Shown in pieces: positions 1,585-31,600 of a DNA stretch of 33,183 nt. The notes under the pieces were generated by a model, which saw only the letters and a program-made list of their open reading frames with translations, was not told the origin of the DNA and did no database searches. Position 1 is the first letter of the stretch; every line of letters starts with the position of its first letter. Where the stretch lies: the NCBI GenBank assembly GCA_021404945.1, contig QWHO01000046.1:1-33183 (forward strand), written 5' to 3'. The stretch is from a bacterium CPR1 (GTDB lineage: Bacteria > Vulcanimicrobiota > Xenobia > Xenobiales > QWHO01). Position numbers and translations under genes: made by a program.

Positions 1585-2370
1585 TCAAGGCCCAGGAGAT
1601 CTCAGACAGAGCAGCAGAGCCAGGGCCAACCGGTACAGGGCAAAGGGCAGCAGCCCCCAGCGGGGCAGGAGGGCCAGGCAGAGGCGAATCGCCAGAAATC
1701 CACTGCTGGCCGCTGCCAGAATGCCCACCAGCAGAATCAGCGGGTCGCCGCCCTCCCAGCGTAGCAGCTTGTAGATCGTTGCTCCCAGAATCACCGGGAA
1801 ACCAAGCAGGAAGCTGAAGCGGGCCGCCTCCACCCGGGTCAGCCCCAGCTGTCGGCCGGCCGCCATGGTCGTGCCCGATCGCGAGGCTCCTGGAAAGAGC
1901 GCCAGGACCTGGCTCAAGCCCACCAACAGAGCCTGGACCAGGCTCAGCTCCCGCATCTCGAGCCTGCCCGGGGAGCGGTCAGCCAGTGCCATGGCCAGGC
2001 CCACCAGGGTCAGCCAGAAGGCCACCGACAGCGCTCCCTGAAAGTGCGATTCCAGGAAGTGCTCCAGCAGAAAACCGAAGCTGGCCACTGGCAGGCTGGC
2101 CAGGGCCAGCCGGCCCAGCAGGCGCCGAGCCGCCGGGTCCGACTCGCGTCCGGGCAGGAGGCTGGAGAGCAGTCGTCCCAGGTCGGACCGAAAGTAGGCC
2201 ACCAGCGCGACCAGCGTACCCCCGTGCAGGGCCACGTCAAAGCCCTTTCCCAGGTAGGGCCAGCCGGCCAGCTCGGGGATGAGCCTCAAGTGGGCCGAGG
2301 AGGAGACCGGCAGAAACTCGGTCAGACCCTGGACCAGTCCCAGCAGTGCAGCCTGCTGGAGCGGGGTCAA
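1585..2370 (-). CDS. uppP: Undecaprenyl-diphosphatase (UppP/BacA)
   Basis: 261 residues, the normal length for BacA-type undecaprenyl-pyrophosphate phosphatases. These integral membrane enzymes recycle the C55 lipid carrier for peptidoglycan and other envelope polymers and can confer bacitracin resistance. The N-terminal signature GLVQGLTEFLPVSSSAHL and the second signature PGASRSGTT are both present and complete, together with several hydrophobic helices. The ATG overlaps the stop of the upstream amidase gene by 4 bp (ATGA), so the two are translationally coupled and both serve cell-wall metabolism. The gene converges with the coiled-coil gene. I see no strong terminator in the 100 bp between them. 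Confidence 0.95.
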   Translation of the reverse strand: MTPLQQAALLGLVQGLTEFLPVSSSAHLRLIPELAGWPYLGKGFDVALHGGTLVALVAYFRSDLGRLLSSLLPGRESDPAARRLLGRLALASLPVASFGFLLEHFLESHFQGALSVAFWLTLVGLAMALADRSPGRLEMRELSLVQALLVGLSQVLALFPGASRSGTTMAAGRQLGLTRVEAARFSFLLGFPVILGATIYKLLRWEGGDPLILLVGILAAASSGFLAIRLCLALLPRWGLLPFALYRLALALLLCLRSPGP

Positions 2371-4130
2371 CGGTTGGCGGTCGTCCGGTTCAGGTAGCGC
2401 GAGGCATACTGGCGCAGGCCGTGGGCGATCCCCTCGGCGATGCGCTGTCGATACTCAGGGGTATTGAGCAGTTTGCCCTCGGTCGTGTTGGAGAGGAAGG
2501 CAGTTTCGATCAAAACCGAAGGCATACGGCTGTGAGAGAGCACGTAGAAGCGATTCTTCTGAATGCCCCGGTTGGCGCGTCCGGTTGCTGAAAGCAGGTT
2601 GCCGTGAAGCTCCTGGGCCAGCAGATAGTCGCTGGACTTGTAGTAGTGCACTGAGGTGCCGTTGGCCCCTGCCCCGGCAGCGCTGTTGCAGTGGACGCTG
2701 ACGAAGAGATCAGCACCGTAGTCCTGAGCGACTTTGACCCGCGCTCCCAGCTCCTGGCTGGCGCTGGACCCGGCCCAGGAGACATCCACGTCCTGTGTTC
2801 TGGTCATCACGACATTCCAGCCGTCGCGTTTGAGGATCTCGGTCAGGCGCAAGCAGATGTCCAGAGTGATGTCGGCCTCACACACGCCCAGGGCCCGATT
2901 GATGGCCCCGGGGTCGGAGCCGCCGTGGCCGGCGTCGATGCAAATCACCCCGCCAATCTTGGGAAAGCTCGTGGCCCCGTAGCCCTGGTTGGAGGTGGAA
3001 TCGATAGGAGCCTGGTCGAGCACTTCGATGACCAGGCTATTGGGGTTATCGCCCGGCGTCAGGCGCGTCTGGGCCGGCCTGGAGAGCTCCATCACGACCC
3101 GCACCACCGCCGCAGGCTCGGCTGAGAATTGAGATACACGCACGTTCTGCAGGAAGCTGCCCTGAGCGGCAAAGTCTTGCTTGGTGCCGACCAGGGCAGT
3201 CTTGGGGATGTCGAGCACGAAACGGTTGTCCGGCTCCTTGTAGCGCCGCCACTCGTACTGAATTGGCCCGGAAGCGCTCAGAACCAGGCGGTGTCCCCCC
3301 ACCATGGGCTCGAAGACCACCGAGGTGATCTTCTCTCCGGGAAACGCCTGGGCCGGAGCGGCCGTCGGACGCTCGGCCGGCAGGCTGAGATGGAAGGCCA
3401 GCTGCCCGGGCGTGCCCGAGGCAGGCCTCAGACTGACCCCGGGAGCGGTGGGCACCACGATCCGGCTCACTGCGGGCCCGAGCTCGAACTGCCCCAGGCG
3501 GATGGTGCCCAGCCGGGGGTGCTCGATCTTGTTGGAGCCGGTGTCGAGCACCGCACCGGGGATGTCGATCACATACCGATCGGGCTCGCGCAGGCTGAAG
3601 GTCTTGCAACGCACGGGCAGGGTGGAGTCGATGACCAGACGCTGAGCGTCGATCTTGACCGAGCGAATCAGGGGCTCGAGCCAGGCGTTCTTGCCCTGAA
3701 CGGTCAGCCGGGCCCCCAGCAGGTCCTCCAGGATGGAGAGAGGCAGGTGGGGTTGCCCTTCGACCTCCTGGGCCACCAGCTCAAGCTGGCGCCCGGTTGG
3801 CTCATCGGGGAAGCGCTGCTGACCCAGCACCAGGCGCTGGGTCAGGCTGCCCTTGCGAGCCAGCAGGGCCTCGCCATCCCAGCTGAGGGAAACGCCAAAG
3901 CAACGACCCAGCACGGCCAGCTCGGGGGCCGATGCGGGAATCAGGAACTCGTCCGGAAGGCTGGTGGCCAGCAGGTCCAGCGTCAGGCTGCCCCGGGGGT
4001 ATTTCAAGTTGAGCCGGGTAGGGGACTTGATGGTGATTTCCTGGGCCTCCGGGCCGTCCTGAGCCAGGGCGGCCAGCTGCAACCCGAATGCGAAAAGGGC
4101 CAGCAAAGCTATCAGCGGCAGTTTTCTCAT
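2367..4130 (-). CDS. N-acetylmuramoyl-L-alanine amidase with two AMIN-type domains
   Basis: 587 residues, exported (signal peptide LIALLALFAFGLQLAALAQ). Residues about 30-145 resemble a copper-amine-oxidase-N-like or stalk domain. Two AMIN-like domains follow (about 155-245 and 268-372, each with a RYVIDIPGA or NRFVLDIPKT strand), which in this family bind peptidoglycan. The C-terminal Amidase_3 domain carries the zinc ligands His402 (DAGHGG), Glu418 (CEADITL) and His480 (SVHCNS) and the catalytic Glu542 (LIETAFLSN). It should cut the MurNAc-L-Ala bond during cell separation, in the manner of AmiA/B/C. A good Shine-Dalgarno (GGAAGGAG) lies 5-6 nt before the ATG. It is coupled to uppP downstream. 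Confidence 0.93.
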   Translation of the reverse strand: MRKLPLIALLALFAFGLQLAALAQDGPEAQEITIKSPTRLNLKYPRGSLTLDLLATSLPDEFLIPASAPELAVLGRCFGVSLSWDGEALLARKGSLTQRLVLGQQRFPDEPTGRQLELVAQEVEGQPHLPLSILEDLLGARLTVQGKNAWLEPLIRSVKIDAQRLVIDSTLPVRCKTFSLREPDRYVIDIPGAVLDTGSNKIEHPRLGTIRLGQFELGPAVSRIVVPTAPGVSLRPASGTPGQLAFHLSLPAERPTAAPAQAFPGEKITSVVFEPMVGGHRLVLSASGPIQYEWRRYKEPDNRFVLDIPKTALVGTKQDFAAQGSFLQNVRVSQFSAEPAAVVRVVMELSRPAQTRLTPGDNPNSLVIEVLDQAPIDSTSNQGYGATSFPKIGGVICIDAGHGGSDPGAINRALGVCEADITLDICLRLTEILKRDGWNVVMTRTQDVDVSWAGSSASQELGARVKVAQDYGADLFVSVHCNSAAGAGANGTSVHYYKSSDYLLAQELHGNLLSATGRANRGIQKNRFYVLSHSRMPSVLIETAFLSNTTEGKLLNTPEYRQRIAEGIAHGLRQYASRYLNRTTANR

Positions 4131-4638: not shown

Positions 4639-5397
4639 GTGTTGATCGATACCCACATCCATCTCGATGCCAGGGCCTATTTTTCCGACTGGACGGAGGT
4701 GCTCGACCGGGCCGTGCGGGCCGGGGTGGCCCACGTGGTCGCCCCCGCGACCACCCTGGAGTCGGCCCGCCGACTTCTGGAGATGGCCAGCCAGGATGCG
4801 CGCGTCCTGGCTGCCGTGGGGGTTCATCCTCACGAGGCGGGCTCCTGGCGTGACGAGCAACTCGACGAGCTGTCCGAGATGGTGGACCGGGCAGTGGCCG
4901 TGGGCGAGATCGGGCTTGACTTCCACTACGACTTTGCACCCCCTGATCAGCAGTTGGGCTGCTTGCGCGCCCAGCTTGGTCTGGCCCGGGAACGCGCACG
5001 GCCGGTCATCTTGCACTGCCGAGAAGCCGAAGAAGCACTCTATGAAGAGCTGAGCCGGGCCCAGCTGCCGGCTGGAGGCGTGGTCCACTGCTTCACGGGA
5101 AGCTGGGACTGGGCCGAGCGGTTCCTCGATCTGGGCTACTTTCTCGGCATCACGGGCATGGTCACCTTTCCCAGGCTGGCCGAGGTGCACGAGGTTGCGC
5201 GCCGCATCCCGCTCGACCGGCTGCTGCTGGAGACCGATGGGCCTTACCTGGCCCCCGTTCCCTTCCGGGGCAAACGCAATGAGCCCGGCTACGTCCCCCT
5301 GATCGCCTCGAAGGTGGCCGAGCTACGCGGCATTGATCCTGAGCAAGTGGCTCTGGCGACCAGTGCCTCGGCCACCAGGCTCTTCGCCCGCCCGTGA
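4639..5397 (+). CDS. tatD: TatD-family metal-dependent DNase
   Basis: 252 residues, the family's usual length. TIM-barrel metallohydrolase motifs are in order: DTHIHLD at the N-terminus (two metal-binding His), GEIGLDFHYD (bridging Glu), VILHCREAEE (His), VVHCFTGSWD (His) and LLETDGPYLAP (catalytic Asp). Known members are cytoplasmic 3'-5' exonucleases acting on DNA and RNA. The start is GTG (GTG TTG ATC GAT), chosen because DTHxH normally sits within the first few residues. The stop TGA overlaps the GTG of the next gene (GTGA), so this enzyme is co-translated with the giant tubulin-like/ATPase protein. No functional link between the two families is known to me. Confidence 0.93.
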   Translation: MLIDTHIHLDARAYFSDWTEVLDRAVRAGVAHVVAPATTLESARRLLEMASQDARVLAAVGVHPHEAGSWRDEQLDELSEMVDRAVAVGEIGLDFHYDFAPPDQQLGCLRAQLGLARERARPVILHCREAEEALYEELSRAQLPAGGVVHCFTGSWDWAERFLDLGYFLGITGMVTFPRLAEVHEVARRIPLDRLLLETDGPYLAPVPFRGKRNEPGYVPLIASKVAELRGIDPEQVALATSASATRLFARP

Positions 5398-8300
5398 GCG
5401 GCCACTTCTTGCTGGGCCTGGGAGGGCTGGGCTCGCGACTGGTGGGCCAATCCAGCCAACTGCTCGCGGGTCGGTCAGGAAGCGGTCGGCTGATCACGGC
5501 CTTGATCGATTCGGACAAGGCGGCCCTCAATGCCCTGGCGGAAAATCCCTGTCAAACCTACCTTCTAGGAGCCCAGCCTGCCGAGAAGCTGCTGCTCAAC
5601 CCGGGCCAATGGGAGCGGTCGGTTCCCCCTGGCGTCCAGCCGGAGTTGAGACGCGTCGGCAGTGGCTCGATCCGAATGCTGGGGCGTCTGATCTATCTGA
5701 CTCACTACCGGTCGCTGCGCGAGTGGCTGGGGCCCGTGCTGCTCGAGCTCGGCCAGACCGGCTCGATCCGGGTAACCCTGGTCGGCTCGCTGGCCGGAGG
5801 GACAGCCAGCGTGCTGTTGTGTGAGCTTCCCTTCCTGCTTCGCCACCTGAGCCAGGAGCTCACTGCCACGGTCCCCCTGACCATTGAGGCGATGGTTCTC
5901 GGTTCAGCTCGCCCGGCCCGCCATGAGCGGGGGGGCTCCAACCCCTATGCGACTCTGATCGAGCTCAACCACTGGCAGGCTTCCGACACGGTCTACCGGC
6001 TGCAAGTGCCGGGCGAGGCTGACTGGGAGTGGTCGGCCCCGCCCTTCGAGCAGATCTTGCTGTTCAGCTGTCGAGACCTTGAGGATGCTCGCGAGCACGA
6101 GGCTTTGAGCCTGCAGGTGACCGCCTGTCTGGGCCTGCCCCTGTGGCCGGCCTACACGGCCCTGGCCGAGGAGGTCAGCCGCCGACAGGCTGCGTTCTGG
6201 GGCCAGACCGACGAGCGCGGGAACCCGGTGGCCTTCTTCAGCCTGGGAAATGCCTCCCTCTCCTTGCCCTTCGATGAGATTCGCACCGCCCTGGCATCCC
6301 GCATCCTGGCTCGACTGGTGGAGCGCTGGCAACAACAGATCACGCGCCAATCGGAGCGGCCCGAGACGCCCCGGGCCGCTCTCGACTTCCTCCACCGGGA
6401 GGCGCTGGCCCGCCATGTGTTCGTGGAGGAGCTGGGCCGAGCCGCGGGCGGACCGGGCGCTTTCCGCCAGAACCGCGAGCTGGCCACCTTGCGCGAGGAG
6501 TTGGAGCGAAAGCCCTCCCAGGGGCCGGCGCTGGTGGCACGCCTGCGCACCCTCGAGGGTCTTTTCCTCACCACTTTGGGCGAGGGTCAACCCGATGGCC
6601 TTTTTGGCAGGGTGACCGAGCGAGGGAGCGAGCTGGTCGCTCGCGGGACGAAGGCCCTTTCCGAAGAGGTGAATAGCTTTTTCCGCAGTGATCGACCGCT
6701 GGGATATGCCGCCTATCTCGAACAGCTCTCTGATGCTCTTGGTGACCGCTTGCGCTCGCTCTATGAAGAAATGAGTCAGCTCGAGCTGGACGAGCTTCGG
6801 CTCTCCCAGGAGAAGGAGCAGCTCCTGCGGCAGGCTGAGGCTGAGGCCGTGGGCGTGCTCGACCGCGTCTTTCGCCGCAAGCGGACGAGCTCACCCACAG
6901 GCCCGCTGGCCGAGCTGACTGACCGATATTACCAGTGCCGCCTGGACCTGCACATCCACCGCGAGGCCTGGAATGCCTTCCAGGAGCTGCTGCTGCTGGT
7001 CGAACGGCTCCGCTCGGAGGTTCGCACCGTCTATGACTACCTCGAGCAGATGTCCACTTTGCTCAAGGACCGCCACAACCAGGCCCTGGGCCAGATCTTC
7101 TCGATGCCGGGCGAGGTACTGATCAGTCGGTCCGAGGTGGACGAGTACCTCGTCGACCGGGCCGCGGGGGACCAGGTCGAGATGGCGGCCGGGTGGGTTC
7201 GAGAGGTCCTTCAACTCGAATTGCCCGAGTTACCCCACCATTTCAAGCCCGGCGAGGCGGCTCAGGCGATGATCCTGGCGGTGGGACAGCGACTCGAGGG
7301 TCTTGAGGGCATCGATGCGTTGGGCAAGTTCTATCAGTGCTACCAGGGACCGGCCGCCGAAGCTCAACTCGAGCAATTGCTTGCTCGGGCCCGGCCAACC
7401 CTGCAGCCGCGCCGGCAAATCGAGGATTGGACGTCTCAAGAGGCGTTTCTCGTTGCCCTGCATTCGGGGACGGGCGAGGAGAGCCCCGCCCACCAGAAAC
7501 TGACCGCCTTCCTGTTGGGACAGGGACTCAACCTCAGCATCGTTCCCTTCCTGAGCCGAGATCGGCTGGTCTTCTTGCGCCTGGTGGGAGGGTTTCCGCT
7601 TCGTGCCCTGGAGCTGACTTTCTTGCGCCAGGCTTACCTCAGCGAGCTCCAGGGCTCCAGGATCGCGCCTCATTGCCGCACCGACGTGCGCTGGAGGGCT
7701 CTATCGCGCCCTTCGGGTGATGAGGTCGAGCGGCTCTGGGAGAGCCTGGCCGTGGCCGTCCGCCTGGGCCACCTGGAGACAGGAGACTTCCTCAACAGCC
7801 CTCGCTGCCCGGATCTGACCTCGGTCCTGGCCTGTCAGGCCCTCTATGACGAAGTGGAAGAGGGATTGCTGACAGAGGGCAATCTGCTAAAGGGATTGGG
7901 GCGTTGGCAGCAAGAGTGGATCGAAGACCAGGGCGTGGAGGCATTCCTCGGGCAGTTGGAGATCCCAGACGACCAGACTCTGCTAGGTCGCGAGTTGCAC
8001 GAGCCTCTGCGAAGGGCTGCCTCTCGCCTGCGCCAGCAAATGGAAGGATGCTGGGCGGAGTGGGAAGCGGTTATCGCCGGCTACCTGAGCCACTCTCCAA
8101 CTGTGACCGAGGCCGATCTGGTCGAGATCCCGGCAGGATTCCGAGCCTGGGCCATGAGCCGGTTCCAGCAGGTCCACCCCGCCGACAGGGTGACCTTCCA
8201 GGCGGCAACGGGAGCACTCGAGGTTCGCCAAGCCGGCGATCGAGCCCATCTCGAGGCTGCCTGCAGGCGACTTGTGGAGAGCCAGACGGCGGATCAGGAA

Positions 8301-9785
8301 AGATTCGCACAGGCGGTCGGTGATCTGGCCGACTCCTTTTGCCAGGTCCTCGGCTGGTCTTCTGACCGGGCCCTGGGTTTTAGCTCCGTCTGGGGAAAAC
8401 TCGTTCATACCCACAGTTTGCAGGTCAAGATCCCCTCTCCCCTGCCATTCCTGGCCTGCCAGAGAGGAGCTCTGAGCCACCAGGACGTTGCCAACCTCCG
8501 TTTGTTGCTCGAGCAACTCGGCCAGGTGAGTCGTTTTTGCATCCTGATCAATACAGGTGAGCCCGCGTCCAACCGCGCCATCCTGGCCGAGGGACTCAGC
8601 GGCCTCCTCCCCACCACCCTGATTCTGCTGACTCCTGAAGACCTCGTAAGAATGGCTGGCAGCGAGAATCCTCTGTTCAGCCTGGTCGCAAGAATGCTCG
8701 AGCAGCTTGACCTGATGGCCATCTCGCCCTTCGTCACCGAAGGTCCCGTGCCGCCCTCGATGTTCTTCGGCCGGGAGGGCGAGCTCAAGGACGTCCTCCA
8801 CCGACTCGAGCACAGCAGTCTGGCCCTGGTGGGACCGCGTTCTATCGGTAAGACCTCCCTCTTGCACCGAGCGCTCGAAGTCCTGCAGCGTGGCGAGCTG
8901 GCCGTTTTCTATCTTGACTGCCACTCGCTGGCCCGAGGCTCGGACTTCTTGCTGGGTCTGGCCGCCGAGCACCTGAGTGACTGGGAGCCCCGGATGAGCT
9001 TCCCGGCCATCCTGATGGAGCTTCAGCATCGCTTCGGTGGACGCCAGGTCCTTTTGATCCTCGACGAGATCGACCCTCTGCTCACGAACGACCAGGTCAA
9101 CTCCGAATTTCTCGCTCGGGCGTTCCGCCAGGCAGCCAGCGAGGGAAAGGCCCGCTTCCTCTTGTGCGGCGATAGGGCTCTGCACCAGCGTCTGCACCAG
9201 GCCGACTCGGCTTTCTGCAACCTTGCCTATCCGGTGAGACTTGCTTTCTTGCCGCCCAGCGAGGCCTCGGCACTCATTCTGGAGCCGCTCGAGCAGATGC
9301 AGGTCCGCTTTGAGAACCGCCAGGAGGCGCTCGACCTGCTGCTTTTCGTGACCGCAGGGCACCCCAACCTGATCCAGAGAGCCTGCCGCGCTCTGGTGGC
9401 CAGTCTGAGCCGGTCCAAAACGCGACAGGTCGACCGCGACCTTCTGGAAGAGGTTCTCAAGGACAATCGCTTCGGGGAAGAGTATCTGGCGACCCTGTGG
9501 GGCTCGAGTGGAACGAAGGAAAGACTCGTCTCACTGGCAATCGAGCCGGACGAGGAATTGACCGCCCAGGATCTGCACGGCCGGCTCGAGCTGGATTTCA
9601 AGGTCGATCTGGCCATGCCAGAGCTGCTGGAAAGCCTGGAAAATCTCTGCTTCTGCGGAATTCTGGAGAGACGGGGCTCGCGGTTCCGGTTCGCCATCCG
9701 CTCCTTCCCTGAGCTGGTGCGCCACTTGATGGACGTGCACGAGGGCGTGGAGCAGTTTCGGACAGGGCTGCTCAAGGGGGTCTGA
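5394..9785 (+). CDS. Giant tubulin-like protein with C-terminal AAA-type ATPase
   Basis: 1463 residues, starting at a GTG overlapping the tatD stop. The N-terminus (FLLGLGGLGSRLV, residues 5-17) is a Rossmann-like glycine motif as in FtsZ/tubulin T1. GSLAGGTASVLL (131-142) resembles the tubulin signature GGGTGSG (T4) in degenerate form. Together these suggest the bacterial tubulin-like group (Pfam Tubulin_2 type). The middle (about 300-1080) is largely helical with Glu/Leu-rich segments and no recognised domain. From about 1123 there is an ATPase: FFGREGEL, Walker A GPRSIGKTS (1147-1155) and Walker B LLILDEIDP (Asp1224), then a winged-helix-like tail. There is no signal peptide or membrane span, so it is probably cytoplasmic. 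The fold call rests on motifs only. A nucleotide-driven assembly or conformational machine is inference. Confidence 0.65.
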   Translation: MSGHFLLGLGGLGSRLVGQSSQLLAGRSGSGRLITALIDSDKAALNALAENPCQTYLLGAQPAEKLLLNPGQWERSVPPGVQPELRRVGSGSIRMLGRLIYLTHYRSLREWLGPVLLELGQTGSIRVTLVGSLAGGTASVLLCELPFLLRHLSQELTATVPLTIEAMVLGSARPARHERGGSNPYATLIELNHWQASDTVYRLQVPGEADWEWSAPPFEQILLFSCRDLEDAREHEALSLQVTACLGLPLWPAYTALAEEVSRRQAAFWGQTDERGNPVAFFSLGNASLSLPFDEIRTALASRILARLVERWQQQITRQSERPETPRAALDFLHREALARHVFVEELGRAAGGPGAFRQNRELATLREELERKPSQGPALVARLRTLEGLFLTTLGEGQPDGLFGRVTERGSELVARGTKALSEEVNSFFRSDRPLGYAAYLEQLSDALGDRLRSLYEEMSQLELDELRLSQEKEQLLRQAEAEAVGVLDRVFRRKRTSSPTGPLAELTDRYYQCRLDLHIHREAWNAFQELLLLVERLRSEVRTVYDYLEQMSTLLKDRHNQALGQIFSMPGEVLISRSEVDEYLVDRAAGDQVEMAAGWVREVLQLELPELPHHFKPGEAAQAMILAVGQRLEGLEGIDALGKFYQCYQGPAAEAQLEQLLARARPTLQPRRQIEDWTSQEAFLVALHSGTGEESPAHQKLTAFLLGQGLNLSIVPFLSRDRLVFLRLVGGFPLRALELTFLRQAYLSELQGSRIAPHCRTDVRWRALSRPSGDEVERLWESLAVAVRLGHLETGDFLNSPRCPDLTSVLACQALYDEVEEGLLTEGNLLKGLGRWQQEWIEDQGVEAFLGQLEIPDDQTLLGRELHEPLRRAASRLRQQMEGCWAEWEAVIAGYLSHSPTVTEADLVEIPAGFRAWAMSRFQQVHPADRVTFQAATGALEVRQAGDRAHLEAACRRLVESQTADQERFAQAVGDLADSFCQVLGWSSDRALGFSSVWGKLVHTHSLQVKIPSPLPFLACQRGALSHQDVANLRLLLEQLGQVSRFCILINTGEPASNRAILAEGLSGLLPTTLILLTPEDLVRMAGSENPLFSLVARMLEQLDLMAISPFVTEGPVPPSMFFGREGELKDVLHRLEHSSLALVGPRSIGKTSLLHRALEVLQRGELAVFYLDCHSLARGSDFLLGLAAEHLSDWEPRMSFPAILMELQHRFGGRQVLLILDEIDPLLTNDQVNSEFLARAFRQAASEGKARFLLCGDRALHQRLHQADSAFCNLAYPVRLAFLPPSEASALILEPLEQMQVRFENRQEALDLLLFVTAGHPNLIQRACRALVASLSRSKTRQVDRDLLEEVLKDNRFGEEYLATLWGSSGTKERLVSLAIEPDEELTAQDLHGRLELDFKVDLAMPELLESLENLCFCGILERRGSRFRFAIRSFPELVRHLMDVHEGVEQFRTGLLKGV

Positions 9786-13362: not shown

Positions 13363-15264
13363 TCAGGCCGCGATGGCCTGTTGGGGTTGAGGCTGAGCGG
13401 TCGGCGGTGCGGCCGGAGGCGCCGCCTGGGGCGGCGGCAAGGCCGGTTTGTATGTGGCTGCAGCGGCCAGCTTCTCATCCACCGTGCGATTGCGGTTCTG
13501 GTGACTGTTGACGATGGCTTTCCCGGTGTTCACGGCGATGCGACCCAGCGCCAGGGCCAGCACGCCTTGCGAAACGACCTGAAGAGCCGGGTTCATCGTG
13601 CCTGTGAGCAGAGCGCCGCAGGTCAGGGCGGTGCCCACGCCGATGGCCGTGTCGATGGCCCCGTCTACGATGAGATGACGCCGATTGGCAGTCGGTGAAT
13701 CGTCGCGGCGGATGCCTTCGACGATCTTGCTGACCCCCGAGTGGGTACGCAGCGCCGCTCCCACGGCTCCGGCAGCCACGGCCACCACGCCGGGAATGGG
13801 CAAGAGATACGGGAAGCTCATCAGCGGATACCAGTTCAGGCCTGCGGCTGCAGTGGCGCCCGCAGCCGCGTCCAGGGCAAACTCATAGCCGTAGAAACGG
13901 GAGATCTGCCCGAAGCTCATCATGCTGCGCGATAGCTTGGGATAGCGGCCGAGCAGGTCGTCATCCTTGGCGATCGACTTGAGCATCTTCTCCCAGTTGG
14001 AGTTGTTCGAGCCGCCGGCCCAGGTGGTGTTCTCGTAGCCGTGGGTGCCGCCCACGGGAACGCCTTCCACCGGGCTCTTGCCTTCGCGGTCAAAGCCATA
14101 GTCGGTGGGCAGGTAGGCCGACAGGCCCGTGGAGCCCTCCATCGAGCGACCCACCATCCCGTTCGTCACCGCATGGTGCTCGGCCACAACGGCGTTCCCA
14201 AGATGCTGCTTGATGGTCTCAGCCGCCTGGCGCACATCGGCTGGGAAGCGATCGTCCTTCGCCACAACCTTGGCGAAGTCTCCCAGGTCGCGGTAGTCGA
14301 CGTAGGGCTCGATGTGGGCCTCGATGTTGGCATAGTGTTGGGCCTGCTTGATATCCTTGCGCAACACGTCCACCAGCGAGGCATCCTGGCCAATCGCGGT
14401 GAGCATCTTGCCGGCGAAGTCCTCGCACGCGTTGCGGATTCCCTCGGCCTGAGAGAGGTCCACGGCCGCCTGGGTGGGGGTGAAGAGTGAGGCTCCGAAC
14501 TGATGCTTGGACTCGTAGACGAACAGTTGTGCGAGCTCTTCGGCGCTCAAATCGCGGCCTTTCTGGTAGGCCTGCTGGCAGTCTTCGATCACCTTGTGCT
14601 GGGGAGTGGTTCCGAATAGACCCGGAATGGGAATGCGCAGGCCTGCCTCCACTTCCTCTGAGCCGACCATGTATTTGGCCACGTTGCGATACTCATAGGC
14701 CACCTCGGCCTGGTTCATCAAGCAGGCGTTGAAGTTGATGACGTCCAACTTCTGTCCGGTGTTCTGCTGGGCGCGCTCGAGCGCGGCCGCCAGGTCCTTG
14801 TTCTGACAGATCGAGCCGGCCTCGTCATCGGTCAGGATGCCTTTGAAGCCTGCCCCGTGGTTCCACAGCACCAGCACGGTTTTCTCGGCTGGATAGGTGC
14901 GCATGCCCCACTCCACAAAGTCTTGCACCGACTGGGGGCTGCCCATGTCGACGTTGCCGCGGTTCTCAAACGAGCTCGTGCTGGCTCCCGTCGTAACCAG
15001 GCCGCGAACCACGTCCTCTTTCATCAAGCCGAGCTCGGCCACGATGTTGACGTTGTCGTCCGAGCCGACCTTGTCGAGCGAATTGAAGGAGTGCCTGGCC
15101 ATCGAGGAGAGGTTGTTCTTGCCGTCTATGAAGTAAAGCACGGTCAGGGCCTTCTTCTGCTGAGGCTTGGCGGTGCCGGTGGCGGCGGCGGGGAGGGGAG
15201 TAACCTGCATCGTCTGGTGGTTCCCTTCGCTAGCTGAATTTGCTCTTTTTTCTCTGAGGGACAT
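13363..15264 (-). CDS. Clostripain-like cysteine protease (peptidase C11) with C-terminal membrane segments
   Basis: Up to 633 residues from the ATG at 15264; an ATG at 15210 with a weak Shine-Dalgarno (AAGGGAA) is equally plausible. The C11 fold starts at KALTVLYFIDGKNNL. The catalytic dyad is visible: His136 in LVLWNHGAGFKG and Cys181 in VINFNACLMNQAEVAYEY. Family members cut after Arg or Lys and usually self-activate. The protease part runs to about 400. After about residue 445 come two long hydrophobic Ala/Gly-rich stretches (WYPLMSFPYLLPIPGVVAVA; VGTALTCGALLTGTM) and a Pro/Ala/Gln tail, suggesting membrane anchoring. No classical signal peptide is seen, so topology is unclear. Its 5' end faces the promoter of the structured RNA 120-180 bp away. 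Confidence 0.85.
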   Translation of the reverse strand: MSLREKRANSASEGNHQTMQVTPLPAAATGTAKPQQKKALTVLYFIDGKNNLSSMARHSFNSLDKVGSDDNVNIVAELGLMKEDVVRGLVTTGASTSSFENRGNVDMGSPQSVQDFVEWGMRTYPAEKTVLVLWNHGAGFKGILTDDEAGSICQNKDLAAALERAQQNTGQKLDVINFNACLMNQAEVAYEYRNVAKYMVGSEEVEAGLRIPIPGLFGTTPQHKVIEDCQQAYQKGRDLSAEELAQLFVYESKHQFGASLFTPTQAAVDLSQAEGIRNACEDFAGKMLTAIGQDASLVDVLRKDIKQAQHYANIEAHIEPYVDYRDLGDFAKVVAKDDRFPADVRQAAETIKQHLGNAVVAEHHAVTNGMVGRSMEGSTGLSAYLPTDYGFDREGKSPVEGVPVGGTHGYENTTWAGGSNNSNWEKMLKSIAKDDDLLGRYPKLSRSMMSFGQISRFYGYEFALDAAAGATAAAGLNWYPLMSFPYLLPIPGVVAVAAGAVGAALRTHSGVSKIVEGIRRDDSPTANRRHLIVDGAIDTAIGVGTALTCGALLTGTMNPALQVVSQGVLALALGRIAVNTGKAIVNSHQNRNRTVDEKLAAAATYKPALPPPQAAPPAAPPTAQPQPQQAIAA

Positions 15265-23983: not shown

Positions 23984-24844
23984 TCACACCGGCAGAACGT
24001 CCACCGCCACGGAAACTTTCTGCTCCCCGCCGCCGAGGACCACGCCCTTAACCGGGGAGACGTCGTCGTAGTCGCGTCCCCAGGCCATGGTGATGTGACT
24101 GTCGCAGGGAATCAGGTTGTTGGTGGGGTCAAAGTCCACCCAACCGTAGGGAGGACAGAAAACCGATAACCAGGCGTGGGAGGCGTCGGCCCCCACAAGC
24201 CGGGGCTGGCCCGGAGGCGGGGTGGTGAGCAGATATCCACTCACATAGCGGGCCGCCAATCCCAGCGAGCGCAGCATGCCGATCTGCAGGTGGGCAAAAT
24301 CCTGACACACCCCGCGGCGGTTGCTGAGAACCTCCTTCAAGCCGGTGGACAGGTCGGTGGCCTCGGGGTCGTAACGGAACTCGCGGTGGATGCGGTCCAT
24401 CAGGTCGAGCACTCCCTCCACCAGAGGCCGCCCGGGTGTCAGGCAGGCGCGGGCATAGTCAGCCAGGTCTTCCCCTGCCTCCACGTAGGGCGAGTCGAAG
24501 CAGAACGCTCGCTCGGCCAGGTAGGCCCGATTCCCCACCAGTTGCTCCATCACTCGCTCCCAGGGGGGCGAGGCCGTGTACTCCTGAGCCGGGCGTACCT
24601 CGACCAGAAAACGAATGGTCACGGTGAGCTCGGTGTGGGGCTCGTGGACCTCGAAGAAGGTGACCGAGTTGCCGAAGTAATCGCGACGACGCGCGATCAC
24701 CGCGGGGATGGGGTCAATCTCCAGGTGCGCCTCGCTCACCTGCTGGCCGGGGTGGGGGCGAGGGGCGCCCACGACCTGGTTGTGGCCCAGCGAAACCGGA
24801 TCCTGGTAGCCGTAGTGGGTGGTGTGGCGCACCCGATACTTCAT
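23984..24844 (-). CDS. Transglutaminase-like cysteine peptidase family protein
   Basis: 286 residues from the ATG at 24844 (MKYRVRHTTHYGYQDPV), which overlaps the upstream stop by 4 bp (ATGA). The listed N-terminus matches the bacterial transglutaminase N-domain (YxV.H.T.Y.Y..PV). The catalytic triad is visible: Cys180 in RRGVCQDFAH, His223 in DASHAWLSVF and the Asp of GWVDFDPTN (about 237-239). Proteins of this group accompany alpha-E and circularly permuted ATP-grasp proteins in many bacteria, in a proposed peptide-synthesis or modification pathway with no defined product. Cytoplasmic by lack of a signal peptide. Confidence 0.9.
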   Translation of the reverse strand: MKYRVRHTTHYGYQDPVSLGHNQVVGAPRPHPGQQVSEAHLEIDPIPAVIARRRDYFGNSVTFFEVHEPHTELTVTIRFLVEVRPAQEYTASPPWERVMEQLVGNRAYLAERAFCFDSPYVEAGEDLADYARACLTPGRPLVEGVLDLMDRIHREFRYDPEATDLSTGLKEVLSNRRGVCQDFAHLQIGMLRSLGLAARYVSGYLLTTPPPGQPRLVGADASHAWLSVFCPPYGWVDFDPTNNLIPCDSHITMAWGRDYDDVSPVKGVVLGGGEQKVSVAVDVLPV

Positions 24845-27291
24845 TCGTGACGCTCCTCGAGAGGCAGAGGAGGGCGCTGGCGTGCGGGAGCCACATGCAC
24901 CAGGTAATGTCGGCTCAAAGCATCGCCAAGTTGGGGAAGGCGCTGCTGGCAACTTTCCAAGAAGAGCTTGCATCGCCCGGGATCGGCGGCCAGGTGGGCC
25001 ACGTCCAGCAGGCGCAGGTCGGTCAAGAGGGCCAGGGCAAGCCGCTGCTCAGGGCTGCGCAGGGCCTGCTGATCAGGCAGATGGCTCAGGTGCTCCTCGA
25101 CCTGGACCAGCTGGAAGGCAATCGAGCGGGGATTGGACTCGTCGCAAAGAATGAGATCGAGTACCGGGGCCATTTGCAGGCCAGCCGGATAGCGTCGCCG
25201 ATAGGTGCGGCCCGAGTCACAGATGCGCAGCACGGCTTCGAGGAGGGCGTCCTCCTGGGCTCGAGACTCCACCAGAGTTCCCTGGACCAGCTCCACGGTG
25301 CGCACGGCACGCTCCAGCCGCCGGCCCAGGTCCAGGAAACGCCAGCCGTAGCCCCGCGACATGCTCTCGGTGGCCATGCCGCAAAACGCCCACAACTCGG
25401 TGATCAGCTCCTCAAGTTGATCCATCAGCACTCGCTCGTGCTCGGCCGGCCCGATCGTGAGGCCGGTCAGAATGCGCCAACAATCCACCGATACCCGGTC
25501 GCGCACGCTGGTGCTGAGCCGATGCACCTGGCGCAGCAGAAAGGCCAGCCCGAATTTCTTCGACTCCAGAGCCAGCTCTCTGATGCGAGGCCAGTCCTCG
25601 CCCTCTTCCGGGTGCATGACGTCAAGCAGGCGCGGCACCGCGGCGGCGTCCTCGGGGTCTCCGAGCAGCTCGAGGCAGCCTCGAATCAAGCGCACCATTC
25701 CCTCGGCCCGCTCGACGTAGCGGCCCAGCCAGAACAGACTGTCGGCCACCCGGCTGGGCAGGTCGTTGCCCCCCCGCGAGAGACCTACCTGGGCACCCGG
25801 ACGGACTACCGGGTGCGAGCCAGAAGATGGCTCCTCCGAGGAGATGACCCAGGTGTCCTTGCTCCCTCCCGAGGCCGACAGGGTCACCACCAGTGAGTCC
25901 GCCGTGCGGGCCACCCGGGCCAACCCCCCGGGCAAGACCTCGAAGCCCTCCTCGCGACTGGACAAGAAGGCGCGCAGCACCATGTGGCGGGGCTCCAGGC
26001 GCTGGCCGCTCCAGACCGGCGAGGTCGACATGGAGACCTGGTCCTGGGCCACCCAGGCATACGGACGAGCTCGGATGCGTAGGCCCAGGTCTTCACGCTC
26101 GGCGCGAGAGAGCTCAGCTCCGAAAACGGCCCGCCGCCCTCCCAGAAAGGTCTGCTGGGGGAAGGCGGTGCGCACCACCAGCTTATCGAGGTGGCTCAGA
26201 ACGTGCTGACAGGCGCCGGGATCGCCGCACCACCAGCTCGGGACCCCGGGGACCTCCAGCTCCTGACCCAGGAAGTGGCGGCACAGGGCCGGTAGGAAAG
26301 GCCCCAGGGCGGGCGTTTCCAGCCAGCCGCTGCCCAGCGAGTTGGCCACTACCACGTTGCCTGAGCGAACGGCCTGAACCAGGCCAGGCACTCCCCACCA
26401 GGAATCGCCCCGCAGCTCCAACGGGTCGCAGAAGGCGTCGTCGAGTCGGCGCCAGATCACGTCCACCGGTTGCAGGCCCTCGAGCTGCTTGAGATAAACG
26501 GCGTTGTCTCGCACCGTCAGGTCGTCCCCTTCCACCAGGGCGCAGCCGAGATACTGGGCCAGGTAAGCGTGCTCGAAGTAAACCGGGCTTTCGGGCCCCG
26601 AGGTCAGCAAGACGATGCGAGGATTGTGGGGATTGAGCGCGGCCAGACCCTCGAGCGAGGCTCGCAACCCTTCGAAGAAGGGCCCCAGCCGGGCCGAGCG
26701 ACACTCGCGGAACAGCTCGGGAAGTAGGCGGCTCAGCACCAGCCGGTTCTCCAGGGCATAGCCTGCCCCGACCGGGGCCTGGGTGCGATCGCGCAGGATC
26801 ATCCACTGGCCTTCGGGAGTTCTTACCAGATCGGTGCTGTAGAGCAAGAGCCGGCTCTGACTGGCCACTGGCAACCCGTGACAGGGGCGCAGGAAACCCG
26901 GGTGGGCAAAGACCAGCTCGGGAGGCAGGAGGCCTTCGCGGAGAAGGTCCTGGGAGCCATAGATGTCCTCCAGCACCATGTCAAGCAGCTGAGCTCGCTG
27001 CACCAGGCCGGCCGAAAGGCTGCTCCACTCGCTCTCGCCCAGGAGCAGAGGGAGTGGGTCGAGCTCCCAGGGCCGCTCCAGACCACCGGGGCCGCCATGA
27101 ACGTTGAAGGTGACCCCGTTCTCGCGCATGAGGCGGCGTACCTCGGCCCACCTGCGAGCCAGAGTCGCGGCCCCCATGGCCTCAAAGGAGCGTAAAAACG
27201 AGGACCAGTGCGGCCGCACTCCCCCCGGCTGGGCGTGCATCTCGTCAAACGTGAGCGGGATCGGCTCGTAGCCGGCGGCCACGGCCCGCAT
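24841..27291 (-). CDS. Circularly permuted ATP-grasp fused to alpha-E domain
   Basis: 816 residues. Part 1 (about 1-480) is the circularly permuted ATP-grasp (CP_ATPgrasp type, COG2308 group): MRENGVTFNVHGGPGGLERPWELDPLPLLL, GAGYALENRLVLSRLLPELF, CALVEGDDLTVRDNAVYL and VDVIWRRLDDAFCDPLELR. GNVVVANSLGSGWLETPAL and PQQTFLGGRRAVFGAELS follow. Part 2 (about 490-816) is the alpha-E domain (COG2307 group), starting GGNDLPSRVADSLFWLGRYVERAEGMVRLIRG and staying helical. In most genomes these are two adjacent genes; here they are one ORF. The gene is coupled to the downstream transglutaminase. It is likely an amide ligase with a helical partner; substrate unknown. Confidence 0.9.
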   Translation of the reverse strand: MRAVAAGYEPIPLTFDEMHAQPGGVRPHWSSFLRSFEAMGAATLARRWAEVRRLMRENGVTFNVHGGPGGLERPWELDPLPLLLGESEWSSLSAGLVQRAQLLDMVLEDIYGSQDLLREGLLPPELVFAHPGFLRPCHGLPVASQSRLLLYSTDLVRTPEGQWMILRDRTQAPVGAGYALENRLVLSRLLPELFRECRSARLGPFFEGLRASLEGLAALNPHNPRIVLLTSGPESPVYFEHAYLAQYLGCALVEGDDLTVRDNAVYLKQLEGLQPVDVIWRRLDDAFCDPLELRGDSWWGVPGLVQAVRSGNVVVANSLGSGWLETPALGPFLPALCRHFLGQELEVPGVPSWWCGDPGACQHVLSHLDKLVVRTAFPQQTFLGGRRAVFGAELSRAEREDLGLRIRARPYAWVAQDQVSMSTSPVWSGQRLEPRHMVLRAFLSSREEGFEVLPGGLARVARTADSLVVTLSASGGSKDTWVISSEEPSSGSHPVVRPGAQVGLSRGGNDLPSRVADSLFWLGRYVERAEGMVRLIRGCLELLGDPEDAAAVPRLLDVMHPEEGEDWPRIRELALESKKFGLAFLLRQVHRLSTSVRDRVSVDCWRILTGLTIGPAEHERVLMDQLEELITELWAFCGMATESMSRGYGWRFLDLGRRLERAVRTVELVQGTLVESRAQEDALLEAVLRICDSGRTYRRRYPAGLQMAPVLDLILCDESNPRSIAFQLVQVEEHLSHLPDQQALRSPEQRLALALLTDLRLLDVAHLAADPGRCKLFLESCQQRLPQLGDALSRHYLVHVAPARQRPPLPLEERHE

Positions 27292-27359
27292 GAATTGTGA
27301 TCAAGTTCCAGCGACGTGGAGGAAATCCTGGCGCCAGCGCCGGAGGAGGGGACTCGAGC

Positions 27360-27782
27360 GTGTCTAAAAGGCTGGCCATGCGGGCCGTCACGCTGCTCAT
27401 TCTGGTCGCCCTGAGCCTGCTGGCTTCGGCCCAGACCCCGAAGCCAGCGCAGAAGTCAAAGACTCTGGTTGACTACCAGAGCGAGCTGGGACTGAGCGAC
27501 ACTCAGGTGGCTGACGTGACGCGCACCCTCGATCTGTTCAAGTCCGAGATCAGGGCCTATCAGTCCGAGCTGGTCAAGACCGAGCGGAGCCTGGCGGCCC
27601 GGGTCAGAGCCGGCGGCCCGGCCGAGGAGATCAAGGCCGATCTCCGCAAAAGCTCGGACCTGCACTTTCAATTGCGTTACCTGGACGTAGTGACCTCACG
27701 CAAGGTCGAGGCCATCCTGAGCCCGGACCAGATGGCCAGGTGGCGGGAGATTCAGCAGAAGAAACGGGGACAAGCCCCGTAG
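27360..27782 (+). CDS. Secreted LTXXQ/Spy-like protein, copy 1
   Basis: 140 residues from a GTG at 27360, with GGAGGAGGGG 8 nt before it. An ATG at 27378 is a possible alternative. The signal peptide is MRAVTLLILVALSLLASAQ. The mature part is helical and charged, with LGLSDTQVADVTRTLDLFKSEI near the start and AILSPDQMARWREIQ near the end. The paired LxxxQ motifs are typical of periplasmic Spy/CpxP/heavy-metal-resistance proteins. It ends directly against the next gene's ATG and is clearly its paralog. It runs divergently from the ATP-grasp/alpha-E gene, with only about 70 bp between them. Confidence 0.75.
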   Translation: MSKRLAMRAVTLLILVALSLLASAQTPKPAQKSKTLVDYQSELGLSDTQVADVTRTLDLFKSEIRAYQSELVKTERSLAARVRAGGPAEEIKADLRKSSDLHFQLRYLDVVTSRKVEAILSPDQMARWREIQQKKRGQAP

Positions 27783-28166
27783 ATGCGCGTTCTTGTGTTG
27801 CTACTCCTGTTGCTGGCCTGGGCCGGGGCCGAGCCCGGGCCCCGAAGCCTGGTGGACTTTCGCCAGGAACTGAAGCTATCAGGCCAGCAGGTGGAGGCGA
27901 TCACCAGCACTTTGCAGCGCTTTCAAGAGGAAAATGCCACTCTGCGTTTCAAGCTGAACGTGGCCGAGCGCGAGACGGCCAACCTGGTGGAGCGGCGCGG
28001 AGATCTGGCTGCCATCAAGGCCAACTTGAAGCTGGCCTCCGACCTGCAGTACCAGATGCGCCTTCTGGACCTGGAGACCTCGAGCAAGGTGGAGGGGATC
28101 CTGAGCCCCGTGCAGCTGAAACGATGGCAGACAATCCAGGCGAAGGAGAGGCAGAAAAAGCCATGA
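27783..28166 (+). CDS. Secreted LTXXQ/Spy-like protein, copy 2
   Basis: 127 residues, paralogous to the previous gene: signal peptide MRVLVLLLLLLAWAGA, then SLVDFRQELKLSGQQVEAI, ENATLRFKLNVAERETANLVERRGD and a C-terminal GILSPVQLKRWQTIQAKE. The two are adjacent without a gap (the first stop is followed at once by ATG) and share the layout of helices, so a tandem duplication followed by divergence is likely. The stop overlaps the next ATG (ATGA). Periplasmic chaperone or envelope-stress function is inferred from family only. Confidence 0.75.
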   Translation: MRVLVLLLLLLAWAGAEPGPRSLVDFRQELKLSGQQVEAITSTLQRFQEENATLRFKLNVAERETANLVERRGDLAAIKANLKLASDLQYQMRLLDLETSSKVEGILSPVQLKRWQTIQAKERQKKP

Positions 28167-28537
28167 GATGGGGTGCCCTGGCCCTGGCGATCCTGCTCTG
28201 CGGGTGCTCTGCCCAGGGGCCCGTCGAGGCCGAGAAAGCCGAGCAGTGCATGACCAATCTGCAGGGTCTGTGGGAGCCGATGGAGTTCTACATGACCGAC
28301 CACCACGGACAGTACCCGGACCGACTCGAGCAACTGACAGCTTGTGGCCCCGCCCGCCAGGAGCCCTACGTTTCCATTCTGCCAGAGTGTCCTCCGGGTT
28401 GGAGCTACGTCTACGAAGTACAGCCTGGCACAGTGAGCCGCTATACCTTGATCTGCCGCAGCCAGGTAAGCGTGCCGGGGCTCACTCCCGACTATCCGCG
28501 CATGACCTCGGAGAGCCGTCCGGCAAGACATCCCTGA
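28163..28537 (+). CDS. Small lipoprotein with pseudopilin (GspG)-like C-terminal domain
   Basis: 124 residues from the ATG overlapping the upstream stop. The lipobox is LLCGCS (MRWGALALAILLCGCSAQ), giving an N-terminal lipidated Cys. After it, AEQCMTNLQGLWEPMEFYMTDHHGQYP then RLEQLTACG has the C..NL..I..A..MY..D..GxYP spacing of type II secretion/type IV pseudopilin head domains. The pilin methylation helix is absent. The rest (PECPPGWSYVYEVQPG, RYTLICRS) contains several Cys likely to form disulfides. Function unknown. It ends the three-gene + strand cluster. Confidence 0.75.
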   Translation: MRWGALALAILLCGCSAQGPVEAEKAEQCMTNLQGLWEPMEFYMTDHHGQYPDRLEQLTACGPARQEPYVSILPECPPGWSYVYEVQPGTVSRYTLICRSQVSVPGLTPDYPRMTSESRPARHP

Positions 28538-28550
28538 GCATTGCCATCAG

Positions 28551-28592
28551 GAGCGCAGCCGGAAACCCCCGACACCACATGGGGGTTTGCGG
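28551..28592. terminator. Hairpin between convergent genes
   Basis: AAACCCCC (28563-28570) pairs with GGGGGTTT (28581-28588) around a 10-nt loop, with outer GCCGG..GCCGG context. There is no long T-run on either side, so it is a weak or processing-type terminator for the two convergent genes. Confidence 0.5.
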
Positions 28593-28605
28593 CCGGACTT
28601 CTAAA

Positions 28606-31600
28606 TTAGCGACGGAGGTCGAGAGTGACCGGGAACTCGGGATTGAGCTCCAGCGGCGGAGCCTCAACCTGACCGGGTGAGTGGCCGATCGAGAAAAATC
28701 TCGCCGTGCGTCGGGCCTCGGCCTCGTAGGCGTTGACCGGGAAGGTGTCGTAGCTGCGCCCGCCTGGATGGGCCACGTGATAGGTGCAGCCTCCGATGGA
28801 GCGGTTCGACCAGGTATCCACCAGATCCAGCACCAGCGGGGCGTGCACCTCGATGGTGGGGTGCAGGCAGTGAGGCGGCTGCCAGGCCCGATAACGCACC
28901 CCGGCCACGAACTCCCCCCGCACCCCGGTGGGAGTCAGGGGCAGGCGGCGTCCGTTGCAGGTCACCGCGTGGCGTGAATCGGTCATTCCCCGCACGGTGA
29001 CTTCGACTCGCTCGAGAGAGGAGTCGACGTAGCGCACCTGACCGCCCAGACCGGGGGTCTCGCCCAGCACGTGCCAGGGCTCCAGGGCGACCCGCAGCTC
29101 CAACTCAACCCCCCGGTGAAGGACCGCGCCCAGACGGGGGAAGCGGAACTCAAAGTGGGCCTCGAACCATTCCCGATCGAAGGGGAAGCCAGCCTGCTCG
29201 AGGTCGGAAAGCACCTCATAAAAGTCCCGACGCACGAAGTGGCTCAGCATAAAGCGATCATGGAGGTCGGTGCCCCAGCGCACCAGGGGGGCGCGATACG
29301 GCTCGCGCCAGAGCCAGGCCGTGAGGGCTCGCAGCACGAGCTGCTGGGCCAGGCTCATCCGGTAGTCGGGAGGCATCTCGAAGTTGCGAAACTCGACCAG
29401 CCCGCGACGGCCACCGGGCCCATCGGGCGAATAGAGCTTATCGATGCAGAACTCGGCCCGGTGGGTGTTGCCGGTTGCATCGGTGAGGAGATGGCGAAAG
29501 ACCCGGTCCACCAGCCAGTAGGGCGCCTCGTCGTGAGCATTTCGACCGCTGCTATCGCCGCTGAGAATTTGCTCAAAAGCGATCTCCAGCTCATAGAGAC
29601 TGTCGTGACGGGCCTCGTCCAGGCGCGGGGCCTGACTGGTTGGGCCGATGAAGAGTCCTGAGAACAGGTAGCTCAAGCAAGGATGGTTGAGCCAGTAGGC
29701 CAGCATGCTGCGCAGCAGGTCCGGGCGACGCAAGAAGGGGCTGTCGGAGGGTGTGGAGCCGCCCAGAATGAGGTGGTTGCCCCCCCCGGTGCCACAGTGG
29801 CGACCGTCGAGCATGAACTTCTCGGCCCCCAACCGGGTCTGGCGAGCCAGATCATAAAGGGTGCGGGTCTTGTCGACCAGCTCGCGCCAGTTGGCGGAAG
29901 GATGGAGGTTGACCTCGATCACGCCGGGGTCCGGGGTGACGCTGAAAGCGACGAGACGCGGGTCTTCGGGCGGGGCGTAGCCCTCGAGGAGCACCGGCAT
30001 CATGAGCCTGGCAGCGGTATCCTCGACGGCCTGCAGCAACTCGAAGTAGTCGTCCGCCGTGGAAAATGGGGGCATGAAGACGTAGAGACGACCGTGGCGG
30101 GGCTCGACGCAGGCAAAGGTTCGAATCACCCGGGCCGTTGCGGGAGGGGCGACGTTCGCGTAAGGGTGCTCGCCCTGGCGTTGCATGGCGGTCACCGAGG
30201 CGGCGGCCCGCACGGTGCGCTGCTCGGGCAAAGGCAGGCGCTCCTCAAAACTGTCGGGCATGGCTGGCCAGGGAAATTCTTCCTTGCTGACCCAGGGCAG
30301 TGAGTCGAGCGGAAGCCGATAGCCCATGGGCGAGTCGCCGGGCATCAGTCGCATCGGCTCTCGCCGAATTTGCACCTGCTCGGACTGCCAGACCGCGCCG
30401 CTATGACTCTGCTGGAGCCGCAGGGGGAGAGAGTATCCGATCACGTTGCCGAGGCCCCCGCTGAAGACCCGGGCCAGGCGGGCCCGCTCCTCCGGGTCGT
30501 CGAGGTTTGACTCCAGGGGATTGACGTTGACCGGCAAGCGGGACTCGCGCCACAGGAAGTATGCGATGTCCTCATAGCCGGGAGAAACGTGGTCGGGGGA
30601 GACCCCCAGCTCTTGCGCCAGAGCCAGCATGAAACGCCGGGCCTCCTCGGGCCCGTAGCCGTAGTCCTTCTCCTCGTCGGCCATCCAGCGGGGATCGCGC
30701 CAGAGGGGGAGGCCATCGTGTCGCCAGATCACGCTCAAGGCCCAGCGGGGCAGCGACTCTCCCGGATAGAGCTTGCCCTGGCCATAATGACGTACGGCTC
30801 CGCTGGCAAAAGCTTTCTCCAGCCGCAGCATCAGCTGCCCAGCCAGCTTGCGCTTGGCTTCGCCCAGAGCGGTCAAGTTCCACTCATCGCCATCCATGTC
30901 GTCCACCGAGACGAAAGTCGGCTCGCCGCCCATGGTCAGGCGCACGTCCCCGGCCGCCAGCTCCTGGTCGACCCGGTCTCCAAGCACCAGCAGCCGCTCC
31001 CAGGCGGCCTCGGAGTAAGGCAGGGTGACCCGGGGGGCCTCACGGATACGGGTGACCCGCATCTGGTAAGAGAATTCCTCACGAGGGGGCTCGCCGGTGA
31101 AGCCAAATGAGCCAGTGACCGGGGCGGCCGTCACCGGCTCGGCTGCGCATGCCAGCGGCAGGTGGCCCTCGCCGGCCAGCAGGCCCGAAGTGGAGTCGAG
31201 TCCCACCCAGCCGGCTCCGGGCAGGTAGACCTCCGTCCAGGCGTGCAGGTCGGCAAAGTCCTCCTCCACCCCGGCGGGACCATCCAGAGGCTTGACATCG
31301 GCCTTGAGCTGGATCGAATAGCCGCTCACGAAGCGGGCCGCCAGCTTGAAGTGACGCAGGAGCTGCACCAGGAGCCAGGCGAAATCGCGACACGAGCCCC
31401 CACCCTTCGTCAGGGTCTCTTCGGGAGTCTGCACCCCCGGCTCCATGCGGATATCGTACTTGAGCCGTTTCTGAAGAGCCTGATTGAGCTCGACCAGGTA
31501 GTCCACAATGCGCATCTCGCCGCGATGTAGCTCTTCGATCAGAATCTGCAATCGGGGGCCAGCCGGCTCGGCCGCGAGATAAGGAGTGAGCTCCTTGGCC

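Follow-up and report, generated by a model that had tools for sequence, protein, structure and literature searches.

The window analysed here, a stretch of 33,183 nucleotides from a bacterium of the class Xenobia, carries a single open reading frame (5394..9785, +) that begins with GTG and encodes a protein of 1463 amino acids. Pfam matches and orthologues identify the whole gene as a Tubulin_2-STAND fusion. Directly upstream lies tatD (4639..5397, +; a TatD_DNase by Pfam), and GTGA at 5394-5397 is at once the start of the fusion and the stop of tatD, a 4-bp overlap. A preliminary description drawn from the sequence had reported a single 1463-residue chain overlapping the tatD stop, as we also find, with the motifs GLGGLGS, a degenerate tubulin signature, GPRSIGKTS and a Walker B, all of which we located in the chain. 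The motif matches are not due to chance, as Tubulin_2 and AAA_22 both score above their cut-offs and the chain is conserved in four other genomes.

The divergent neighbour on the reverse strand is an N-acetylmuramoyl-L-alanine amidase with AMIN domains (2367..4130, -), which adjoins a BacA/UppP gene (1585..2370, -). The neighbours scanned in the window (tatD, the amidase, UppP, a HisRS-like gene and others) are mostly housekeeping genes. Among the neighbours of the fusion and its relatives at the loci compared, the amidase, UppP and HtrA are counted as envelope-related, and AIM24 is also listed. Given that no transmembrane segment is apparent in the fusion protein, it is probably cytoplasmic. 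Elsewhere in the window are a Clostripain-family (C11) peptidase of 633 aa (13363-15264) and a cluster encoding a circularly permuted ATP-grasp/Alpha-E protein and a DUF2126 amidoligase-transglutaminase protein (24841-31929).

The N-terminal part of the chain begins with a tubulin/FtsZ-like nucleotide-binding domain (aa 1-345; 5394..6428, +), in which Tubulin_2 (PF13809) matches aa 88-309 (5.5e-19, 69.1 bits against a cut-off of 27; 72.1 bits in a whole-genome search). It is followed by a helical/coiled-coil region (aa 346-943; 6429..8222, +) with a heptad pattern that is best at about aa 523-565, and a low-confidence AlphaFold model of the tubulin half is purely helical between aa 293 and 927. 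Ordinary Tubulin_2 proteins have a C-terminal half co-linear with the helical/coiled-coil region, and an alignment of aa 1-943 to such proteins from the same phylum extends over 871 columns (hhalign; probability 100, E 5.7e-46). Because this match spans so many columns, most of the roughly 800 middle residues that the preliminary description left unassigned can be recognised as the usual coiled-coil/helical region of the family, and the stretch that lacks a named family shrinks to about aa 944-1110. The passages of Makarova and Koonin (2010; PMC2875224) on FtsZl1 likewise give the family a tubulin domain followed by a coiled coil and a helical region. FtsZl1/Tubulin_2 proteins share with the fusion the T1 and T4 loops of a tubulin-type N-terminus, the coiled coil, the mostly helical C-terminal region and the presence of ordinary FtsZ in the same genome. 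They differ in being about 1000 aa long in all, whereas the fusion adds some 520 C-terminal residues with the STAND ATPase. Judged by profile and colinearity, residues 1-943 are a divergent Tubulin_2/FtsZl1 protein.

The T1 loop GLGGLGS (aa 8-14; 5415..5435, +) and an acidic ID.D motif, which reads IDSD in the window, are present in all five fusions. The T4 phosphate loop SLAGGTASVLL (aa 132-142; 5787..5819, +) is SLGGGTGSGML in the orthologues, so that two glycines are replaced and the FtsZl1 GTP loop GGGTG(S/T)G is lacking. Its core reads AGGTASV in the window, GGGTGSG in the four orthologues and AGGTGSA in a paralogue from the same genome. Alanine at the first T4 position is usual in Tubulin_2, and the later changes of G to A and G to V are particular to the window copy, the only one of the five fusions with a degenerate T4 and in this respect unlike FtsZl1/Tubulin_2 proteins in general. 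GTP use by the window copy thus appears doubtful. The T4 loop is also variable in other members of the clade, and we therefore retain the family assignment on the strength of profile and colinearity.

A tubulin-type fold is likely, although not proven, for the N-terminus. A fold search with the model of the tubulin half, built from five sequences with a poor mean pLDDT of 46, gave FtsZ for all of the top six PDB matches at probabilities of 0.96-1.00, yet with E values of 0.02 and above, and the first plain Rossmann match from the same model was a reductase at rank 48. The plain Rossmann N-terminus that the preliminary description had named as contrary to its reading thus did not appear, with the caveat that the FtsZ matches have weak E values and come from a low-confidence model. 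Against an FtsZ profile of relatives, the T1, T2 and T4 loops fall in register in a weak alignment (probability 7%), and the general Tubulin profile PF00091 reaches an ordinary Tubulin_2 of the same genome in the T4 region (E 4.7e-4). A profile search of the tubulin half against solved structures returned no matches.

The C-terminal part begins with an alpha/beta linker domain (aa 944-1110; 8223..8723, +) that falls into no named family. Towards its C-terminal end the linker is similar to the stretch that precedes the ATPase in a stand-alone 607-aa homologue outside the phylum, a protein that has part of the linker in common and is encoded beside a histidine kinase. The ATPase itself (aa 1111-1373; 8724..9512, +) is assigned to the STAND type by Pfam, profile and fold matches, including AAA_22 at aa 1140-1267 (2.4e-8, 34.8 bits against a cut-off of 27) and nSTAND1 (9.7e-7). 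The motifs that define the STAND class are all present: an hhGRxxE-type motif before Walker A, MFFGREGE (aa 1123-1130; 8760..8783, +), an intact Walker A, GPRSIGKTS (aa 1147-1155; 8832..8858, +), an intact Walker B, LILDEID (aa 1221-1227; 9054..9074, +), and a GxP motif, GHP (aa 1322-1324; 9357..9365, +), which is SHP in the orthologues. Walker A and B occur in five of five fusions. The chain ends shortly past a winged-helix-like domain predicted by the model (about aa 1374-1435; 9513..9698, +), and no C-terminal sensor repeats were found, no repeat family being matched there; such repeats are common, but not required, in bacterial STAND members. The AlphaFold model of the C-terminal half, again from five sequences, is poor (mean pLDDT 51), and this domain, with a helix-helix-beta-beta order, is its best-modelled part (10-residue blocks at pLDDT 60-89).

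The STAND families nSTAND1 (PF20703), ATPase_2 (PF01637) and SSO1545 have the same succession of hhGRxxE, GPRxIGKTS, hhLDExD, GxP and, as predicted for the fusion, a winged-helix-like end. The fusion departs from them in its tubulin-like N-terminal partner and in being without C-terminal sensor repeats. SSO1545 (2fna, 7e-9) is the best fold match of the ATPase half, followed by archaeal ORC and, lower down, by a plant resistosome and Avs4. Profile and fold comparisons show the C-terminus to be similar to Cdc6, ORC1, ORC2 and ORC4 (Cdc6 and ORC4 among the solved-structure profile matches). This similarity and the winged-helix-like end would also suit a protein that binds DNA by its winged helix, with an ORC/Cdc6-like ATPase, and transports DNA, or sets its position, along a tubulin-like filament in the manner of TubZ/TubR in one chain. 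We consider this distinctly improbable: STAND ATPases and SSO1545 have the same fold, the Pfam matches are to nSTAND1 and AAA_22 rather than ORC, and a partition-type neighbour is absent. We read the C-terminus as belonging to the STAND/ORC-Cdc6-like branch of AAA+ rather than to the ring unfoldases, which refines the AAA-type ATPase of the preliminary description. Outside the phylum, similar ATPases also share a chain with GAF or TPR domains, and within the phylum one homologous module is joined to an FHA-like domain.

Full-length orthologues, at 38% identity, are present in four genomes (G010-G013, among them UBP9_UBA1432 and UBP9_UBA6111) of a related genus of Xenobia (UBP9), the latter name corresponding to class Xenobia within Eremiobacterota; both names are in use in taxonomy and in publications. 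Of 149 genomes from the phylum, only this one and those four have the full 568-column ATPase module, always in a frame of at least 1480 aa together with Tubulin_2. Outside these five, no frame in 388 sampled genomes matched both halves, and matches to the tubulin and ATPase halves there always lay in different frames; well over half of this sample, which is not a complete survey, comes from outside the phylum. A search for the same fusion had been proposed in the preliminary description, and its joining of a tubulin-like protein and an AAA-type ATPase in one chain is borne out by profiles that match both and by repetition in five genomes. The viral contigs scanned held no homologues, and a scan of genome contigs with the single fusion protein as query gave no matches. 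An assembly artefact or chance joining is ruled out, because the same full-length fusion recurs in four other genomes and both halves are under purifying selection.

Sister genes without the ATPase are found in the same genome, as the paralogue, and in related genera. The paralogue (G000 contig C177, L042:3658-6360) encodes 900 aa, ends just past the ATPase junction and has a T4 loop reading SLAGGTGSA. A tree of 39 Tubulin_2 proteins unites, with 100/100 support, the window fusion, this paralogue, the stand-alone proteins of G004, G006 and G008 (about 1000 aa) and the four other fusions in one clade, within which the fusions do not form a clade of their own. Gene order connects these loci as well. 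The amidase is the divergent neighbour of the fusion in the window and in G010-G013 alike, and UppP adjoins the amidase in the window and in the orthologous locus L040. tatD is directly upstream in the window, in G006 (at 26 bp) and in G008, so that the adjacency to tatD noted in the preliminary description extends to two related genomes; a functional coupling of the fusion to TatD may be supposed from it. HtrA follows downstream in G006 and G008, and in G010, G011 and G013 it lies close to the fusion. The common neighbours (amidase/UppP and tatD) indicate one ancestral, orthologous locus, inherited vertically between families of the order. We reject a horizontally acquired or phage- or plasmid-borne gene in view of the conserved neighbours and the lack of a phage match, and plasmid matches of the fusion are distant and partial only.

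For the history of the fusion, which we reconstruct from one tree and gene order, the simplest reading would be that the fusion is old and arose once, and that the paralogue and the G004/G006/G008 lineage later lost the ATPase. Since the two fused modules share 45-48% identity and the same junction, two independent gains are less probable. A split-gene (Rosetta) search beside the stand-alone copies found no separate ATPase-homologous neighbour, and the next gene in G006 and G008 is HtrA, not an ATPase.

Comparison of G010, G011 and G013 gave dN/dS values of 0.16-0.24 for the tubulin domain, 0.10-0.24 for the middle and 0.07-0.10 for the linker and ATPase. The ATPase evolves about two to three times more slowly than the tubulin and upper-middle parts, and the greater constraint on the linker and ATPase argues that the fused switch is not a decaying appendage. 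This difference in rate also bears on the nature of the tubulin half, which could be a rigid scaffold that no longer undergoes GTP-driven assembly, does not polymerise and serves only to dock partners for an otherwise ordinary STAND signal ATPase. The two glycines missing from the T4 loop of the window copy would suit such a scaffold, as would the T6-H7 elements, which are needed for FtsZ filaments and are not identifiable in the FtsZl1 family according to the passages of PMC2875224 on it. However, the four orthologues retain the canonical GGGTGSG loop, and all five fusions have the T1 loop and the acidic ID.D, and we regard this explanation as rather unlikely.

The reading that we hold most likely, at about even chances, is instead that an ATP-dependent STAND switch controls whether a tubulin-like scaffold assembles near the envelope. 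STAND proteins are off as ADP-bound monomers at rest and, on a cue, turn on as ATP-bound oligomers (PMC7583971). In this scheme the N-terminal 943 residues (tubulin-fold domain, coiled coil and helical region) would, judging from their family, most likely self-associate. The C-terminal ATPase would swap ADP for ATP in response to a cue and then oligomerise, and the linker would pass its state on, such that assembly of the tubulin-like part is turned on or off. The ATPase could thus act as a signal-gated nucleator or brake, probably on the cytoplasmic face near the cell envelope. Given the weakened GTP loop and intact ATPase motifs of the window copy, ATP rather than GTP is its likely controlling nucleotide.

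This proposal draws on the domain and fold matches, the full-length orthologues, the strong constraint on linker and ATPase and the envelope-related neighbours described above, on the homologous ATPase modules that are joined elsewhere to GAF, TPR and FHA-like domains, and on the retention of Walker A and B in every fusion while T4 is degenerate in the window copy only. Against it stand the persistence of the paralogue and of the G004, G006 and G008 copies with no ATPase attached, the missing sensor repeats at the C-terminus, the poor AlphaFold models and the T6-H7 elements that cannot be identified in the family. We found no report in the literature of polymerisation by any FtsZl1 protein; the FtsZl1 passages of PMC2875224 propose a part in remodelling membranes, in which filaments may form by another route. 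The bolder claim of a new regulated cytoskeletal class, in which a STAND ATPase of the immune-receptor type, sitting in the same chain, nucleates or takes apart a tubulin-family polymer, so that ATP and a signal drive the filament instead of GTP, we put forward tentatively, and we think it rather doubtful.

In G010-G013 the next gene downstream overlaps the fusion by about 11 bp and encodes an AAA_35 ATPase joined to a nucleotide-cyclase domain. Together with the amidase, UppP, HtrA and AIM24, it suggests a role in envelope-related signalling. This gene (L038:7177-8820, with equivalents in L039-L041) encodes a 547-aa protein with a class III cyclase, is full-length only in G010-G013 and has weak similarity to Pycsar cyclases.

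The operon setting of the fusion differs from that described for its relatives. Where PMC2875224 discusses FtsZl1 gene neighbourhoods, an operon with vWA protein, GTPase and OmpA-type genes is common but not universal, and the only fusion named there is to an N-terminal protein kinase in Planctomycetes. None of the vWA or GTPase partners typical of FtsZl1 was found among the scanned neighbours in the window. Another related kind of system is formed by the GAP1-N2 systems (Kaur et al. 2020, PMC7159879), which likewise combine a tubulin-domain protein, a coiled-coil/helical C-terminus and an NTPase switch; they have separate DO-GTPase and GAP1 genes, whereas the fusion has the STAND ATPase in the same chain.

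An alternative explanation is a defence (conflict) protein, with a STAND sensor, a tubulin-like effector or sensor, and a logic akin to that of GTPase-tubulin-HSP70 conflict systems. STAND ATPases include defence sensors, and Avs4 is one of the fold matches. Tubulin and HSP70 genes are alternative components of GAP1-N2 systems (PMC7159879), related Xenobia have an HSP70-like gene after a Tubulin_2 gene, and the Pycsar-like cyclase domain lies in the next gene of the orthologues. This explanation nevertheless seems improbable to us, as PADLOC gives no match for the fusion, its mostly housekeeping neighbourhood is vertically inherited between families of the order, and neither DO-GTPase nor GAP1 was found among the scanned window genes (DO-GTPase2 reaches 12.8 bits on the fusion against a cut-off of 27). 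For want of a PADLOC match, a phage match, a DO-GTPase and a GAP1, we do not file the fusion under the GTPase-centred conflict systems of PMC7159879, to which its logic is similar.

We found no description of a Tubulin_2-STAND fusion in the open-access literature. Its parts are of known kinds, and their combination, real and conserved, is apparently undescribed. Tubulin_2/FtsZl1 proteins occur widely among bacteria and archaea, and a natural fusion that links the family to a well-understood ATP switch offers a handle for probing the tubulin part. The combination suggests a tubulin relative that is switched by a cell signal. If the ATP-switch proposal is true, the receptor logic of the NLR/Apaf type would be joined to the tubulin superfamily.

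Other tubulin relatives in these genomes deserve mention. The genome of the window (G000) carries three Tubulin_2 genes and, like several relatives, two ordinary FtsZ genes (contigs C563 = L130 and C139). An ordinary Tubulin_2 of G004 (L089:3-4136) has a long C-terminal Gln/Pro/Gly-rich repeat tail (GQPPMPGQQPGFGQY) that is cut off by the contig edge. A related family of Xenobia has a different degenerate Tubulin_2 gene in which an ADGSSG-like loop takes the place of GGGTGSG (L083:9244-14438, L084, L085, L086 and L092:7848-14692), followed by a conserved gene of about 770 aa that is zinc-ribbon-like and HSP70-like, an arrangement that recalls tubulin/HSP70 conflict systems.
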